Origin: Verrucomicrobiota bacterium
GTDB taxonomy: Bacteria; Verrucomicrobiota; Verrucomicrobiia; Verrucomicrobiales; DEV007
DNA: 54,818 bases
NCBI GenBank assembly: GCA_030625775.1
Contig: DAOUQC010000024.1
Location: 1-54,818, forward strand
Reading direction: 5' to 3'
Shown here: positions 2,312 to 8,491 of the stretch, one piece after another
Layout of the letters: each line of letters begins with the position of its first letter
How positions within the stretch are numbered: position 1 is the stretch's first letter
The notes under the pieces: generated by a model
The model's input: only the letters and a program-made list of their open reading frames with translations
Told to the model about the DNA's origin: nothing
Database searches by the model: none
Translations under genes and position numbers: made by a program

Positions 2312-3643
2312 TTATACCGCATCGGATACGGATGAAAAATGGAAATCGTCAACCAGCAGGGGAGGAATGTGCATCGGCGTCGAACCTTCACTGCCGAGAA
2401 CCCGTTCAGGTGAGCCGGAGGCGATAATGCGGTTGAGCAGGGAGGCCGGGCTTTCGTTGAAACGGAAGTTGTTGATTGGCTTGCTGATCTTGCCGTTTTT
2501 GATCAAAAATGTGCCGTCGCGGGTGAGTCCGGTGTAGAGCAGGCTTTGTGGTTGCACCATGCGCAGATACCAGAGACGGGTGATCAAGACACCTCGATCT
2601 ACCTTTTTGATCAAGTGTTCGAGGGAATGCCCTTCGCCCGGCATGATCACGTTACTCGCATAAGGCATCGGCTGGATGTTTTGTTTTTTTGCCCAGTAAC
2701 GATTGCAGAACAGATTCTTGAGGGTGCCGTCCTTGATCCAATTGGTTGCTCGGTTGGCCTGGCCGTCGTGTGAAAAAATGGGTCCCGGTGCTGCTTTATA
2801 AGTGGGGTCGGAATACAGTGTCGCTTTGTCACCGAAGAGATTTTGTCCGATCGGATTTTCTTTAGTCAGGCTAGAGAGGAAACTGCGCTTTTCATCCGAG
2901 CTACGCTGGTTGAGTGCCCACATCAAGAGGCTAATCAAATTGCGTGCGGCACTGGCTTCGAGCACCACAGGATACTTTCCAGGATCCATGGCAGCAGGCC
3001 CTCTGGAATCCAGTGCTTTTTTGATGGCTGTATTGGCGGTTGATTTTAGAGACAAATCCTGACTGTCGGTGAACTGGCAACTGGACCAACCTGAGCCGTT
3101 GCCTTTTGAACTTCTGGCCGTGATTGAAAAATCGACGGTGGTGCTTGCTTGGTAAGCAAATAACCCAGCCGTGTTGGCGATGGCGTTCGCGGAAATTTTA
3201 CGATTCAAAAAACCTGCACCGGAAATTTTTGCCGTGCGAGTGGCATCAATCGCCGGTTGAAGCCAGGCCGCCAATTCTGGTGGTCCGCTAGCGGCGGTGT
3301 TCGCTGAAAATGTAGCGGCTTCTTCGTAACTTTGTTTTCCCAAAGGTGGCATAAACTCGGGGTTTTCAGGAGCCAGTTTCGCCATCTGTTCAGAGCGGGC
3401 GACAGCATCTTTTAAAGAGGTGTCGTCGGTCTGGTTCCATTCCACACTGGCGGAGCGGGTGCCAAAATTTGAAGTCACCGACAGGCTGAGAAGTTTCCGT
3501 GCAGCATTGCTGGTGATGTCATTGTTGGCGAACCTCAAATTGGCATCGTCGGCATTCGAAATGTGAACGACAGCTGAGTCCGCTTTGGATAGTTTGAGGA
3601 TTTTTTCTGCGAGCTCGCGGGTTTGAGATTCGCTCGGAATCAT
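2312..3643 (-). CDS. TldE/PmbA-like protein (partner of the TldD peptidase)
   Basis: This 443-residue protein resembles the TldE/PmbA subunit of the TldD/TldE protease. In Escherichia coli this pair makes a heterodimer that degrades unfolded peptides and helps mature microcin B17. It lacks the HExxxH motif present in its upstream neighbour, as expected for the non-catalytic partner. The start ATG overlaps the stop of the TldD gene by four bases (3640-3643), which points to coupled translation. I see no signal peptide: the N-terminus 'MIPSESQTRELAEKIL' is hydrophilic. That is odd beside a Tat-signal TldD; either the partner is carried along during export or the two act in different compartments. 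Confidence 0.85.
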   Translation of the reverse strand: MIPSESQTRELAEKILKLSKADSAVVHISNADDANLRFANNDITSNAARKLLSLSVTSNFGTRSASVEWNQTDDTSLKDAVARSEQMAKLAPENPEFMPPLGKQSYEEAATFSANTAASGPPELAAWLQPAIDATRTAKISGAGFLNRKISANAIANTAGLFAYQASTTVDFSITARSSKGNGSGWSSCQFTDSQDLSLKSTANTAIKKALDSRGPAAMDPGKYPVVLEASAARNLISLLMWALNQRSSDEKRSFLSSLTKENPIGQNLFGDKATLYSDPTYKAAPGPIFSHDGQANRATNWIKDGTLKNLFCNRYWAKKQNIQPMPYASNVIMPGEGHSLEHLIKKVDRGVLITRLWYLRMVQPQSLLYTGLTRDGTFLIKNGKISKPINNFRFNESPASLLNRIIASGSPERVLGSEGSTPMHIPPLLVDDFHFSSVSDAV

Positions 3644-5232
3644 GCTTTTGACCCTCCTTCTTCCTGGGTATTCAAAACTTGAACTTGGCGGAAGCGCGAA
3701 GGCACTGCACCGTGGGATACTGGGGCTGATTGCGTCGGCCGCCCTTTACCGCAATTGAAGGCGCCGCCGAGTTCGTATGTCGAAGGGCCTCCGAGTCCAT
3801 CACAGGAATTCCAGAACTCGACCGAGTTACCCTGGTAAGCGACATCCTTATACATGCCGTCGAGTTTGCCGTTTTTGATTTTGTGAAAAGTCTGACCGGT
3901 GAATTGAAAATTGTAACGCTGTTGATCAATGCTCCAGCTCCCCGAGCCGACGATGTAAATGCCGTCTTCGACATCGGAAATCAGCTTCTCTGTAGTTACG
4001 CCGTCGTCCTCACCGGGTTGCAGGGAGATGTTGGGCATGCGCTGGAGAGGGAAGGTGGAGAAGCTGTCGGCGTAGGCACAGCCGTTGGATTGCTCTCTGC
4101 CGATCATGGCGGCTTGTCCGATCGCCATTTGATAATTGGTGAACAGGCCCTTGTCGATGATGTTGAACTCCTTGCCTGCCGTCTTCACTCCGTCGTCGTC
4201 ATAGGCGATGGTCGACAGGCCGTTGGCCTGGGTGCGGTCAGCGCGAATGGTCACCAGATCGCTGGCGTATTTCAGTTTACCCAAGAGCTCGGGTTTCACA
4301 AAAGAGGTTCCGGCAAAGTTGGCTTCGAAGCCCATCGCACGATCCAGCTCAGTAGGGTGCCCAATGGATTCATGGATCGTCAACCACAGATTGCTTGGGT
4401 GAATAACAAGATCCTTGGGGCCGGATTTAACTCCGGGTGCTGCCATTTTTTCTTTGGCTTCTTCAACGGCCTGAGCCACTTCTCCTTCAAAGTCGTAATC
4501 GCGAACATATTCGTAACCGGAGCCGCGCGGTGCGGCCAGTGAGTCGCGGTTGGAGAATCCACCTTTTTTCGAGTCCACCACAGTGACCGAGAAATAAGGA
4601 CGGATGCGAACCCGGGACTGTTCGATGCAGCTGCCGATTGAATTGGCCAGCCACTTTTCCTCTTTCACCTGCATCAGTCCGGAGCGGCAGAAATTGGCTC
4701 CGGCGTTTAAAGCACGCTGATTGATGTCCAGCAGAAGCGCTGCCTTGTCGTCCAGAGAGATGGAAAACGGATCGATCTCCATCGGCATCTGCCATTGGTC
4801 TTTCCACGCTGGAAGTTTTTCCAAAGATACCGCTTCGAGGCGTTTTCCTTTTTGTTCTTTGGCAATGGCTATCGCGGTGTGGGTCAGGCGCAGAACTTCT
4901 TCTTCGCTGATCTCATGGCTGGCGGCGAAACCCCAGGCGCCGTCGACCAGAGCTCTCACACAACAACCGCTGTCTTCAGAATAGTTGACAGCACGCACAG
5001 CCGATTCGCGGGCGTGCAGACTTTCTGAAGAGGTTTTTCCAATCCGAAATTCTGAAAATTCCGCACCCAGCTGATTGGCCTGATTCAGGACAGCGTCAGC
5101 AAGTGAGGGGAAGGCCAGAGAGAGAGGGGAGGAAGTGGCCGCCGCACGGCTCTCCTGCAAAAGGGACCTATTGGTTGTCAGCGCCACGGTTCCAGTGATC
5201 GCGGCTTGGTGTAAAAATTTTCTCCTTTTCAT
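3640..5232 (-). CDS. tldD: TldD-family metallopeptidase with Tat signal
   Basis: The 530-residue protein opens with a twin-arginine motif (RRKFL at residues 3-7) and a short hydrophobic stretch, so export in folded form is predicted. The catalytic motif HESIGH is at 287-292, with the HExxxH spacing of TldD. A cysteine in 'NCGKG' (C494) sits where TldD has its third metal ligand. It is longer than E. coli TldD (about 480 residues), mainly because of the leader. The gene overlaps the upstream cytochrome c gene and the downstream TldE-like gene by four bases each, so the three form one leftward operon. Family knowledge says peptide cleavage; the substrate here is unknown. The Tat leader is the unusual part. 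Confidence 0.9.
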   Translation of the reverse strand: MKRRKFLHQAAITGTVALTTNRSLLQESRAAATSSPLSLAFPSLADAVLNQANQLGAEFSEFRIGKTSSESLHARESAVRAVNYSEDSGCCVRALVDGAWGFAASHEISEEEVLRLTHTAIAIAKEQKGKRLEAVSLEKLPAWKDQWQMPMEIDPFSISLDDKAALLLDINQRALNAGANFCRSGLMQVKEEKWLANSIGSCIEQSRVRIRPYFSVTVVDSKKGGFSNRDSLAAPRGSGYEYVRDYDFEGEVAQAVEEAKEKMAAPGVKSGPKDLVIHPSNLWLTIHESIGHPTELDRAMGFEANFAGTSFVKPELLGKLKYASDLVTIRADRTQANGLSTIAYDDDGVKTAGKEFNIIDKGLFTNYQMAIGQAAMIGREQSNGCAYADSFSTFPLQRMPNISLQPGEDDGVTTEKLISDVEDGIYIVGSGSWSIDQQRYNFQFTGQTFHKIKNGKLDGMYKDVAYQGNSVEFWNSCDGLGGPSTYELGGAFNCGKGRPTQSAPVSHGAVPSRFRQVQVLNTQEEGGSKA

Positions 5233-6017
5233 TTACGCAATTCTTCTGGCAGAGCGTTTTGTCGGGCTGCTTTTTGTTTCTCTTTTTTGCGCATCTCGTC
5301 AAATTCCCGTTCTCTGCGGGATTTGGTGTTGGCATATTTTTTTGCCAGCAAGGCGATGTAGGCTGTTACATCGGCCGCTTGTTCATCCGAAAGGTATTGG
5401 GTCATCTCATGCATTTTGTGGCCCTTTTCATCAGCAGGGTTTCCGCCCCGGATGCCTTTGCGGAATTTGTATAATTGTGAGCGGATATACCAATCCTGAA
5501 GCCCGATCAGGGGGGCGCTGCCGAAAACCACTTCACCCTTGCCGTTGAAACGGTGGCATTTGGCACATATTTCCATGAAAACCTCGTTGCCTTTTTGTGC
5601 ATCGCCACCCAGAACATTTTGAGTGGGGTGCATGGGCATGGCCGCGATTATTTTGGCAAGCCCGGTAATCTGGGAGGCATCGATGGCGGTGATAATGTTA
5701 TGCATGATCTGCCCGGCAGGATCCTCTGGGTTGGTGCCACGCAGGTCGCTGCGGAATTTGTCAATCTGGGTTTCCACATACCAGGAGGGCAGTCCGGCTA
5801 TCGAAGGAGCTTTGAGTGCTTCGGATCCTTCTCCTTTTTTGCCGTGGCAATTTGCGCAGACTTGGGCAAAAAGATTTGCCTCCGAGATGTTTTGGGGGAG
5901 ATCCGCTTGAGCGGTGGGTGAGGTGATGACAGTGGGGGGGGCTGTTTTTTTCTCTGCTGCGGACAGACCCAGGACGAAACTCGAAACAGACAGCAAAACC
6001 AGACAGACAAATTTCAT
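5229..6017 (-). CDS. Secreted diheme cytochrome c (c4/c553-like)
   Basis: I place the start at the ATG at 6017 because it gives a clean signal peptide (MKFVCLVLLS..., cleavage near 20). The alternative ATG at 6044 would put ten charged residues in front and overlaps a likely operator. Two heme-binding motifs are visible: CANCH at 54-58 and CAKCH at 151-155. Each is followed by a similar block ending in a possible axial Met (MHN, MHE), so this is a tandem duplicated cytochrome domain as in cytochrome c4. The tail after about residue 225 is highly charged. A periplasmic electron carrier is likely. It is the first gene of the cytochrome-TldD-TldE operon and is divergent from an NsrR-like regulator. 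Confidence 0.88.
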   Translation of the reverse strand: MKFVCLVLLSVSSFVLGLSAAEKKTAPPTVITSPTAQADLPQNISEANLFAQVCANCHGKKGEGSEALKAPSIAGLPSWYVETQIDKFRSDLRGTNPEDPAGQIMHNIITAIDASQITGLAKIIAAMPMHPTQNVLGGDAQKGNEVFMEICAKCHRFNGKGEVVFGSAPLIGLQDWYIRSQLYKFRKGIRGGNPADEKGHKMHEMTQYLSDEQAADVTAYIALLAKKYANTKSRREREFDEMRKKEKQKAARQNALPEELRK

Positions 6018-6027
6018 CTTGCTATTG

Positions 6028-6047
6028 TTGTATTCTAAGTACATCTT
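6028..6047. promoter_or_regulatory. Candidate NsrR-type operator between divergent genes
   Basis: Read leftward, this 20-base stretch is AAGATGTACTTAGAATACAA. It resembles the NsrR operator, built from an AAGATGYA-like half and an inverted ATACATCTT-like half around an A/T-rich centre; the left half matches well and the right half only partly. It sits in the 50-base gap between the cytochrome c start (6017) and the NsrR-like gene start (6068), where it could control both. The match is by eye only. Confidence 0.45.
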
Positions 6048-6052
6048 TCAAG

Positions 6053-6058
6053 TATAAT
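6053..6058 (+). promoter_or_regulatory. Candidate -10 box (TATAAT) for the Rrf2/NsrR-like gene
   Basis: A perfect TATAAT lies nine bases before the ATG at 6068. A weak -35 (TTGTAT at 6028-6033) would have a long 19-base spacer and would lie inside the candidate operator. If this -10 is used, transcription would start within a few bases of the ATG, giving an almost leaderless mRNA. No Shine-Dalgarno sequence is visible before the ATG, which fits. Confidence 0.4.
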
Positions 6059-6067
6059 TATTCAACG

Positions 6068-6517
6068 ATGCAGTTGAGCAAATTTACAGACTATTCTCTC
6101 CGCGTGCTTATTTACACTGCCGCCAGGTGTCCTGACAAGGTTTCAATCACGGAATTGGCAGAGACTTATGATATTTCGCGCAATCATCTGGTGAAGGTGG
6201 TGAACCAATTGGCCAATCTGGGCTATTTGGAAACCACGAGAGGGCGGGGCGGTGGGATTTTGCTGGGGCAGGTGGCAGAAGAAATAGTGATTGGCGATGT
6301 GATAGAGGCGGTGGAGCCGGGTTTTGATATGGCGGAATGTTTTGGCATTGGCACCAACCACTGTCGCCTGACTCCTGTTTGTCGTTTGAAAGGAATCATG
6401 AATGATGCCAAAACTGCCTTTTTGAGGGAGTTGAGTCTCCATACTCTGGCCGATGTAGTCGGGCAGCCGCAGGCTATCATCGAGGCCTTGGCACTTGAAT
6501 CTGCAAACACTAGATGA
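6068..6517 (+). CDS. Rrf2-family transcriptional regulator, NsrR-like
   Basis: The 149-residue protein has the Rrf2 winged helix: 'MQLSKFTDYSLRVL' at the N-terminus, a recognition region with 'ISRNHLVKVVNQL', and the wing 'TTRGRGGGI'. Three cysteines (C91, C99, C105) followed by 'RLKG' match the iron-sulfur cluster region of NsrR, although the C-x7-C spacing is wider than the C-x4-C or C-x5-C of characterised NsrR proteins. NsrR senses nitric oxide through its cluster and releases DNA. Here it is divergent from the cytochrome-TldD-TldE operon and lies 44 bases upstream of a monoheme protein gene, so it probably controls both. Whether the signal is nitric oxide, iron or redox state cannot be told from sequence. 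Confidence 0.88.
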   Translation: MQLSKFTDYSLRVLIYTAARCPDKVSITELAETYDISRNHLVKVVNQLANLGYLETTRGRGGGILLGQVAEEIVIGDVIEAVEPGFDMAECFGIGTNHCRLTPVCRLKGIMNDAKTAFLRELSLHTLADVVGQPQAIIEALALESANTR

Positions 6518-6561
6518 TTTTGAATGTTTCCCCTGAATAACCCCCCAAAATAATACGAGAG

Positions 6562-7929
6562 ATGAAACCTGCTACTATTCGATTCAGCCAATTCAAAGCA
6601 ACAGCGCTTGCGATTACTTTTTTTGCTCTTGCTATCATGCAGGGAGTTCAGGCTATTGATGATTTTGAATTTCCACCAATCAGCTATTCGGATACCAAGC
6701 CGAATGACCGGATCACCCAACTGCAAACTGATACCGAATCAGGTAAGCTGAAATTCACCCAGAAAACAGAGAGGGATTTTGTTGGGGCACTGCTGAAGGA
6801 ACTTGATATTCCAGCATCTTCCCAGGCCTTGGTATTTTCGAAAACCAGTTTGCAGACATCGGCGATCAATCCGGGGCAACCGCGGGCGATTTATTTCAAT
6901 GAAGAAGTTTATTTTGGTTGGACCCGTAATCGCGATCTTGAATTGATGGCGGCTGAACCCAAGTTGGGAGTGACCTTTTATCTGATTCATCGCGACCCGA
7001 AAAACTCCAAGCTTTCCTACGAACAACACACCGATGAATGTTTTTCCTGTCATGCCGCCGGGCGAACCGGAGGGCGGCCAGGCATGGTGGTACGCTCGGT
7101 GCTGGCGGATGCCAAGGGATTCCCGATTTTTTCTGCCGGCAGTTACACGACTGATCAGAGCAGCCCGATCGCCGAGCGCTGGGGTGGGTGGTATGTGACC
7201 GGACAGCACGGTGAGCTCCGTCACATGGGCAATGCAATCGCCATCGAGGTGGATAAGGGGAATGGAGCGGAGATTGATCGCGAAGCGGGTGCCAATAAGG
7301 ACATGGAGGAATTAGAGGAGTTTATCGATCCGACCGATTATCTGGTTCCCAGCAGTGATATTATCGCCTTGATGGTTTTGGAGCACCAGGTGGGGATGCA
7401 TAACCGCCTGATAGAGGGGAATTACGTGGTGAGGAAAGCGATCTATCGCGACCAGGAAATCAGTCGTGAATTGGGGGAAAAACGCAAGGGCTTCAGCGAT
7501 ACCACCAAGCGGATCATTGATCACCAGGCAGAGCGGATTCTGAATTATTTGCTCTTTGCCAACGAGGTCAAATTGACCGGGGGAGGGCTGGATTCCAAAT
7601 CTTCTTTTGTCGAGGACTTCCAGCATAATGCCCGGGTTTCCAAGGATGGACGGTCGTTGAAGGATTTTCAATTGTTGAGTCGGATTTTCAAATACCGTTG
7701 CAGCTACATGATTTATTCGAGCTCCTTCGAGAGCCTTCCAAAACCCTTGAAAGCGAAAATTTACCAACGTCTTGGTTCTATCCTGACGGGTAAAGATACC
7801 AGCAACCAGTATGCCTACCTCAAGGAAAGCGAACGCAGACGCATTCTGAATATTCTGATCGAGACCCTGCCGGATGCGCCTGCGAGCTGGAAGAGCGACG
7901 GGAAGGTGAAGAAGGTGGCTGCGAAGTGA
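6562..7929 (+). CDS. Secreted monoheme cytochrome c-like protein of unknown function
   Basis: The 455-residue protein has an N-terminal signal segment (about residues 12-31, ending GVQA). It carries one heme-binding motif, CFSCH (160-164), followed by an 'AAGRTGG' glycine-rich loop. Downstream is 'SPIAERWGGWYVTG', then a long helical part rich in His, Met and Glu ('LEHQVGMHNRLIEG'). I do not recognise a characterised enzyme family. It follows the NsrR-like gene on the same strand by 44 bases and is probably in its operon. A periplasmic redox enzyme or electron carrier is a reasonable guess, perhaps tied to nitrosative or oxidative stress because of the regulator next door. It stops six bases before the end of a convergent rhodanese gene. 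Confidence 0.72.
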   Translation: MKPATIRFSQFKATALAITFFALAIMQGVQAIDDFEFPPISYSDTKPNDRITQLQTDTESGKLKFTQKTERDFVGALLKELDIPASSQALVFSKTSLQTSAINPGQPRAIYFNEEVYFGWTRNRDLELMAAEPKLGVTFYLIHRDPKNSKLSYEQHTDECFSCHAAGRTGGRPGMVVRSVLADAKGFPIFSAGSYTTDQSSPIAERWGGWYVTGQHGELRHMGNAIAIEVDKGNGAEIDREAGANKDMEELEEFIDPTDYLVPSSDIIALMVLEHQVGMHNRLIEGNYVVRKAIYRDQEISRELGEKRKGFSDTTKRIIDHQAERILNYLLFANEVKLTGGGLDSKSSFVEDFQHNARVSKDGRSLKDFQLLSRIFKYRCSYMIYSSSFESLPKPLKAKIYQRLGSILTGKDTSNQYAYLKESERRRILNILIETLPDAPASWKSDGKVKKVAAK

Positions 7930-7935
7930 CTCTGT

Positions 7936-8424
7936 TTACTTTTCCACCGGGAGCTGCTCTTTACCCCAGTCCATCATGCCTCCATCGAGATGCAGGATGT
8001 GCTTGAAATTGAGTTTTTTGAAAGTGTCCAGTGAAGAGGTGCTGCGGCCACCGCTGCGGCAATGGACCAGATAACTTTTGCTGGGATCCAGCTTTTGCAA
8101 ATCATCGGTGAAGGTAGCAGCTTTAAAATCAATGTTGATAGCACCTTTGATGTGACCGCTGGCAAACTCACTGGGGGTGCGGACATCGAGGATGACGGTG
8201 TCTGGATTCTTTATGATGAATTCTGCCGCTTGAATTGCAGTGACATGCTCGATCTTGGTCTCAGCCGGTGCTTTTTCATCAGCTTTTGCAGGGGCCACCT
8301 TTGCTGTCTGTGCAGACGGGGCGCTGCCTTTTTTTGGAGCAGGGGCCTGGTCATTTTTCTGACAGCCTCCACTGAGAATGGCAGCAGAGATGACGAGGGA
8401 GGGAAAGACGTAGATAGTTTTCAT
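7936..8424 (-). CDS. Rhodanese-like sulfurtransferase lipoprotein
   Basis: The 162-residue protein begins with a lipoprotein signal peptide and lipobox LSGGC (Cys21), then an Ala/Pro/Lys-rich linker to about residue 58. One rhodanese domain follows, with 'VILDVRTPSEFASGHIKGA' and the active-site loop HCRSGGRS (catalytic Cys122). Single-domain rhodaneses carry persulfide sulfur from thiosulfate or other donors. The lipobox places it on a membrane facing the periplasm. The gene is convergent with the monoheme gene, with only six bases between their ends. Its donor and acceptor are not evident from the neighbours. Confidence 0.9.
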   Translation of the reverse strand: MKTIYVFPSLVISAAILSGGCQKNDQAPAPKKGSAPSAQTAKVAPAKADEKAPAETKIEHVTAIQAAEFIIKNPDTVILDVRTPSEFASGHIKGAINIDFKAATFTDDLQKLDPSKSYLVHCRSGGRSTSSLDTFKKLNFKHILHLDGGMMDWGKEQLPVEK

Positions 8425-8491
8425 GAAGACGAGGAGTAAAAAATATTCGACCGGACTTGAACAATGACAAGTAATGGTGAGAAGTAGAGCA

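Follow-up and report, generated by a model that had tools for sequence, protein, structure and literature searches.

We report a family of predicted exported, single-haem c-type proteins that we found undescribed, that is repeatedly linked to Rrf2 regulators, and that stands partly in a context of nitric oxide (NO) defence. It was met in the genome of a Verrucomicrobiota bacterium (GCA_030625775.1; 4.88 Mb, 96% complete), in the 54,818-nt stretch of contig DAOUQC010000024.1 that was analyzed here (the window). There the gene of the monoheme protein follows that of an NsrR-type regulator; across a 50-base gap, in the opposite direction, run the genes of a diheme cytochrome c and of TldD-like and TldE-like proteins. 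Computed directly were the gene order, the conservation of a dyad in the gap, and the proximity of Rrf2 and NO-defence genes to some members of the family. As a whole, the locus is rather probably an NO-response switch with divergent operons, an NO-consuming exported monoheme protein, and a diheme electron donor. The main novelty is the monoheme protein, which an earlier sequence-only reading of this DNA had left unexplained, rather than TldD/TldE.

An unnamed monoheme family and its neighbors

Pfam and NCBIfam assign the diheme cytochrome, TldD, TldE, and the regulator to families; the monoheme protein, already called unrecognized in the sequence-only reading, has neither a Pfam nor an NCBIfam family, nor a PDB relative by sequence. 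A scan of named genomes confirmed at least 528 relatives, of which the best 80 were kept (L072 to L151; the 80 named loci). These come from Verrucomicrobiota, Planctomycetota, Acidobacteriota, and Hydrogenedentota, with three lacking an assigned phylum. In the order to which the source genome belongs, 109 of 141 genomes carry the family, many with two or more copies.

The window protein and 67 of the 80 named relatives (68 rows) were aligned and modeled, omitting nine incomplete or odd-length sequences and four near duplicates. One CxxCH motif is invariant, as are H164, H275, and many polar residues; no methionine position is invariant, and at 42 positions a polar, aromatic, or cysteine residue is conserved in at least 90% of the rows. 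No NCBIfam family matched any of the 68 members, Pfam gave just four single matches (E, 0.002 to 0.009), and the family profile produced only stray matches against PDB sequences (best E, 0.097). Pfam and NCBIfam models of Hmp, NorB, and globins matched neither the 68 members nor the window protein. Literature joining the family, NsrR, and these phyla was not found among titles and the openings of abstracts, which is not proof of its absence from print.

Within 2.2 kb of the monoheme gene, an Rrf2 gene is present in 36 of the 80 named loci (19 co-directional, 17 divergent), and Rrf2 genes numbered 37 near versus 3 far (binomial p, 6e-15). At L139, the Rrf2 gene lies just past 2.2 kb with hmp between, giving 37/80 at 2.3 kb. 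Mapped on a quick 114-row tree, the linkage takes a minimum of 16 changes. Genes within two positions were tallied by Pfam family in two halves (271 of 278 genes at 78 of the 80 loci; seven genes of at least 900 residues omitted). Among the 25 most frequent families per half, Rrf2 was counted 21 times and Tll0287-like 7 times, and the second half included NorB, protoglobin, and flavohaemoglobin domains (3 each). In 140 control genes at least four positions away, Rrf2 was counted twice and Tll0287-like, NorB, protoglobin, and flavohaemoglobin at most twice (none among the 25 most frequent).

Hmp, NorB, and globins are the classic NO genes. Hmp, NorB, protoglobin, or truncated globin is encoded within 2.3 kb of the monoheme gene at 8 of the 80 loci, with none farther off in those eight, and all eight also have an Rrf2 gene, versus 37/80 overall (Fisher p, 0.0013). 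One Verrucomicrobium-like genus has nsrR divergent from hmp-monoheme in three genomes. Across the order, 12 Hmp loci (12 of 14 Hmp genomes) and 3 NorB loci (3 of 5 NorB genomes) were read; an NsrR-like gene stands opposite hmp in six of the 12 Hmp loci (L203 to L205, L208, L210, and L215). The source genome (96% complete) has no match for Hmp, NorB, or Hcp.

Three side observations concern the family. The source genome holds three monoheme matches, of which the L051 copy (G000:C121:35000-50000) is very divergent (branch, 2.27) and has no Rrf2 neighbor. L112 and L117 come from records titled Candidatus Kuenenia, are placed by the family tree with Fuerstiella/Schlesneria-like Planctomycetes, and are possibly mislabeled metagenome-assembled genomes. 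Haem genes of the Tll0287-like type (PF11845) adjoin the monoheme gene at L086, L106, L112, L115, L117, L118, L123, and L137, some as tandem pairs.

The regulator and its predicted operator

The regulator carries an Rrf2 domain (PF02082; 110 bits, cut-off 30). Its best NCBIfam model is NsrR (143.4 bits; RirA, 109; IscR, about 50), and the PDB entry that it matches best, 5n07, is an NsrR, which we take to be that of Streptomyces coelicolor. The three cysteines noticed earlier are present (C91, C99, and C105), and a fourth, C21, was found. The cluster ligands reported for S. coelicolor NsrR are three cysteines and Asp8 (PMC5411485); the window regulator has all of them, plus Arg12 and Asn97. Among 36 distinct co-directional regulators, Asp8 and Arg12 are each kept in 35, the three cysteines in 34, and an asparagine two residues before the second cysteine in 26. 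Two additional Rrf2 genes are present in the source genome.

The published NsrR consensus is gATGyAT-N5-ATrCATc (PMC1274295). The palindrome at 6027 to 6045 departs from it at 2 of 14 positions, with exact spacing, and is the only site with two mismatches in the window. Genome-wide, 49 sites have at most two mismatches (reversed-pattern control, 7); by proportion, about 1 in 2,000 gaps of 50 bases would hold such a site. Across seven loci of the window's own clade, TTGC.ATTGTTG.AT.....GTACA.CTTTCAA is invariant while the remainder of the gap drifts. Upstream regions of co-directional rrf2-monoheme pairs were then compared (35 distinct, close relatives included; L079 omitted as too short). The core TGYAY-N5-RTRCA, fixed only after these regions had been inspected, is exact in 24 of them (100 dinucleotide shuffles: mean 0.08, maximum 1) and present with at most one mismatch in 31 (shuffles: mean 1.87, maximum 6). 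It is missing upstream of all 58 family genes that have no regulator within 2.2 kb. By hand count, the published consensus occurs with at most three mismatches in 13/35 co-directional and 1/18 divergent regions.

Because the consensus-like palindrome is conserved in relatives and the dyad is exact in 24/35 regions, both sides of the gap are probably under an NsrR-type repressor acting through 6027 to 6045, judging from sequence. The operator-like site proposed earlier for this gap, as one that could control both sides, is supported. An NsrR-type iron-sulfur repressor would bind there and repress both the regulator-monoheme and the diheme-tldD-tldE operons; NO would damage the cluster, the repressor would leave, and both operons would be transcribed. 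That gene order and palindrome arose by chance, in a divergent pair of the usual kind whose two sides are regulated separately, appears very improbable: the complete five-gene order occurs in three genomes only, and with up to three mismatches allowed the window holds 5 such sites, no more than the 7.0 expected, yet exact dyads far exceed the shuffle mean of 0.08 and a regulator lies near in 36/80 loci at a p of 6e-15.

Like known NsrR regulons, the locus has an Rrf2 regulator with three cysteines and Asp8, a local target, and a 19-base dyad of the gATGyAT-N5-ATrCATc type, and the nsrR/hmp-monoheme order of one genus adds to the likeness. NsrR is associated with hmp, norB, hcp, dnrN/ytfE, and nnrS, with hmp and norB as targets (PMC1274295). 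In contrast, the target in the window is not hmp, norB, or hcp but an unnamed monoheme family with a diheme cytochrome and TldD/TldE. The first two cluster cysteines of the window regulator are seven residues apart, versus five in S. coelicolor NsrR, and this regulator misses the NCBIfam equivalog cut-off.

Several points weigh against an NO switch. The regulator scores 143.4 bits against an NsrR equivalog cut-off of 182 and is therefore named NsrR-type, not an NsrR equivalog. Most regulators at divergent (Planctomycete) loci are of another Rrf2 type, with CPLG...CPLH and no Asp8, and TGYAY-N5-RTRCA is exact in 0/18 divergent regions; the other Rrf2 type and another dyad found there make NO sensing at these loci less sure. 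The 35 upstream regions contain close relatives and are not independent, and the same dyad is lacking in the six nsrR/hmp gaps (best, two to three mismatches). No Rrf2 gene lies within 2.3 kb at 43/80 loci, some on contigs that end nearby, and much of the family may therefore have other roles. The NO-related neighbor families were selected after being seen. A monoheme gene adjoins hmp in 3/12 Hmp loci, all from one genus, and norB in 0/3 NorB loci; Tll0287-like genes, frequent neighbors (10 near, 4 far), are not NO specific.

Some of these points suit an alternative in which the Rrf2 regulator responds to iron, to cluster status, or to oxidants but not to NO, the monoheme protein works as a redox or peroxide-type enzyme produced under the stress in question, and the NO neighbors reflect a general haem and redox stress theme. 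The missed NsrR cut-off and a RirA score of 109 bits, the other Rrf2 type in most Planctomycetes, the common Tll0287-like neighbors, and the 3/12 Hmp loci would all fit it. Against it stand the retention of Asp8, Arg12, and the three cysteines in 34 to 35 of 36 regulators, an operator matching the NsrR consensus with exact spacing, and the regulator at all eight named loci with Hmp, NorB, or globin. We hold this alternative to be unlikely and favor the NO switch.

Another dyad, TCTACANNTCAANNTGTAGA, which was read from the Planctomycete divergent regions themselves, occurs in 8/17 of them at up to three mismatches (shuffle mean, 0.02) and also precedes hmp-monoheme-norB in L137. A TAGGTA...TACCTA palindrome lies in the nsrR/hmp-monoheme gaps of L203 to L205 and before the rrf2-monoheme pair of L080, hinting at operator variants for one regulator type.

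Two candidate extensions were rejected. A wider form of the operator, TTGYAYN5RTRCAWCTTTCAA, has its only exact match in the source genome in the window (runner-up, two mismatches), and matches with up to three mismatches (8) do not exceed the reversed control (12), which gives no support to further NsrR targets there. The 3/12 Hmp and 0/3 NorB loci show that Hmp and NorB genes of the order are not always accompanied by a monoheme gene.

Structure and possible role of the monoheme protein

AlphaFold2 gave a confident model of the monoheme protein (predicted local distance difference test [pLDDT], 91.8; predicted template modeling score, 0.90). With the whole model, Foldseek found no match at an E of 0.001 (best, 0.16), and the best VIA match was an unrelated protein below the tool's noise level (Z, 6.2; 116 of 455 residues). 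With the haem domain alone (pLDDT, 90.3), Foldseek again found none at an E of 0.001; the top VIA row was Nitrosomonas europaea cytochrome P460 (2je2), also below the noise level (Z, 3.2; 110 aligned residues; root mean square deviation, 4.9). The absence of a structural match does not by itself establish a new fold.

Cytochromes P460 and c'-beta (superfamily review: PMC11928373) resemble the monoheme protein in being monoheme c-type proteins with a beta-rich domain, a CxxCH after the sheet, and a link, proposed in the case of the monoheme protein, to the gas chemistry of the nitrogen cycle. They differ from it in that PF16694 matches none of the 68 family members at an E of 0.01, that the monoheme protein has 455 residues and 2je2 has 157, and that the monoheme CxxCH lies mid-protein. 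In a profile comparison, 18 P460 sequences did slightly better than shuffles (4 of 60 as good; 4, 3, and 4 of 60 for three overlapping P460 sets), versus 11/60 for Tll0287-like proteins and 22/60 for an ordinary diheme cytochrome. Kinship to P460 is a lead, not a result. Elsewhere in the order, PF16694 matches 19/141 genomes (17 above the cut-off; L219 to L240) and has no match in the source genome; these matches include short divergent ones with GMxKRExGYDPExGDWEYF.

The monoheme protein would be exported, receive its c-type haem, and bind and consume NO, by reduction or oxidation, at a haem for which no methionine ligand is invariant and around which polar residues are strongly conserved; H275 and H221 are candidate haem ligands. 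We tentatively suggest, at somewhat less than even confidence, that the family may constitute a new enzyme class, made up of exported c-type haem proteins that destroy periplasmic NO, that it is widespread in Verrucomicrobiota and Planctomycetota and separate from Hmp, NorB, NorVW, and globins, and that in genomes like this one it takes their place under its own NsrR-type switch. The lack of a match for Hmp, NorB, and Hcp in the source genome fits a main role for the family there. At some loci the family shares genomic place and regulator with Hmp or NorB; no sequence relation to them was found, and the monoheme protein is predicted to be an exported c-type haem protein, whereas Hmp resides in the cytoplasm and NorB in the membrane.

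It is possible, if doubtful, that the protein instead traps or senses NO and is not a catalyst, buffering or signaling periplasmic NO as in the gas-binding role proposed for cytochrome c'-beta. The gene context would be identical, many rrf2-monoheme loci have no obvious adjoining redox partner, and the weak structural hint points to cytochrome P460; the 42 positions conserved in at least 90% of the rows look enzymatic, however, and a dedicated diheme cytochrome is kept in the window's clade. Whether enzyme or NO-binding protein, this family of at least 528 relatives, unnamed in Pfam and NCBIfam and linked repeatedly to NO-type regulators and, at some loci, to NO-defence genes, is a candidate, open to testing, for an NO sink or NO-binding protein that has so far been missing, and its conserved operators offer ready-made binding assays and a basis for regulon prediction. 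Water, soil, and wastewater, in which NO and nitrous oxide are formed and consumed, commonly harbor Planctomycetes and Verrucomicrobia.

Diheme cytochrome, TldD/TldE, and gene layout

The diheme cytochrome, presumably of the c4/c553 type, resembles diheme class I cytochromes c in its PF00034 match and in having two domains that each carry a CxxCH and an invariant methionine (seven rows); it differs in standing opposite an NsrR-type gene, in one clade. It is found opposite the regulator in seven loci of the window's eight-row clade, the contig of the eighth (L074) ending too early. In this clade it is the likely partner of the monoheme protein, to which it would pass electrons.

TldD and TldE resemble the TldD/TldE (PmbA) metalloproteases: TldD has three Pfam domains and HExxxH, and its TldE partner lacks HExxxH. 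They differ from known pairs in the twin-arginine (Tat) leader of the window TldD and in their place inside a cytochrome operon, seen in three close genomes only. These are the window, L072 (same genus), and L073 (monoheme protein 86% identical), the sole loci in which TldD/TldE follow the diheme gene. In the window the diheme/TldD and TldD/TldE genes overlap by exactly four bases each, and gene order and strands are also as described earlier; the diheme-TldD overlap of L073 is one base. Close relatives of TldD occur in 20/141 genomes of the order. The Tat (RR) leader and HExxxH are intact in 16 of 20 other copies, the remaining four being cut or split matches and omitted, and TldE adjoins TldD in 16 of 18 relatives' loci.

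The sequence-only reading had taken the pairing of the cytochrome with TldD/TldE as a possible pointer to a peptide-modifying or redox-controlled periplasmic pathway; such a pathway, modifying or processing peptides under redox control, now seems improbable. The five-gene order of three close genomes, the four-base overlaps of the window, the intact Tat leader and HExxxH, and the reported role of TldD/E as a leader-peptide protease (PMC5810440) would suit such a pathway. Against it, none of the 18 TldD loci outside the genus has the diheme or regulator gene (L184 is cut off upstream, and L183 has only 0.8 kb upstream), and at L033, L034, L035/L075, and L109 the diheme gene faces the regulator with no TldD. 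Among the open reading frames read around the locus, none was noticed that would encode a precursor peptide or a peptide-modifying protein, though no search was aimed at them. Of the synteny expected earlier, regulator plus monoheme recurs across the tree and the diheme opposite this pair is conserved in 7/7 judgeable loci of one clade; the link to TldD/TldE is seen in the three close genomes only. Under the favored NO switch, TldD/TldE would have joined the regulated operon late and may help to clear damaged proteins from the periplasm. In L169 (5982-9386; G051), a monoheme paralog of 37% identity precedes TldD-TldE by 0.6 kb on the same strand; that 14-kb stretch showed no Rrf2 gene, and the arrangement may be chance or a second TldD/E link.

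The features are collected in Table 1. The system had earlier been placed at 5229 to 7929, a span that takes in the cytochrome, regulator, and monoheme genes and leaves TldD and TldE outside.

Table 1. Features of the locus, in window coordinates
Feature	Position	Strand	Basis
TldE-like	2312..3643	-	PmbA/TldD domains 2 and 3 above cut-off; no signal peptide seen
TldD-like, twin-arginine (Tat) leader MKRRKFL, HExxxH = HESIGH	3640..5232	-	All three Pfam domains
Diheme cytochrome c, Sec signal peptide, two CxxCH	5229..6017	-	PF00034
Divergent intergenic gap, 50 bases	6018..6067	.	Sequence
NsrR-type operator (predicted), GTTGTATTCTAAGTACATC	6027..6045	.	Core dyad 6029-6043, TGTAT-N5-GTACA
Promoter-like TTGAAA-N16-AACAAT, diheme-tldD-tldE side	6024..6051	-	Consensus match only
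TATAAT, possible -10 for regulator-monoheme side	6053..6058	+	Spotted by eye; scanner did not list
NsrR-type Rrf2 regulator	6068..6517	+	C91/C99/C105, Asp8, Arg12, Asn97
Monoheme c-type protein, unnamed family, signal peptide	6562..7929	+	Single CxxCH = CFSCH (C160-H164)

Domain 1 of TldE falls below the Pfam cut-off (14.6 versus 20.9 bits). Open reading frame calling starts the diheme cytochrome at 6044, yet its signal peptide, MKFVCLVLLSVSSFVLG, starts at 6017. The minus-strand promoter-like match (6051 to 6024) spans the operator and is weak alone, with 4 such matches found versus 2.2 in shuffles (5950 to 8450); both of its hexamer areas are largely invariant across the seven loci. For TATAAT, an identical hexamer is present only in L072 among six aligned relatives. 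Convergent with the monoheme gene is a gene for a Rhodanese-like lipoprotein (7936 to 8424), which was not found beside the monoheme gene in the relatives' loci searched.

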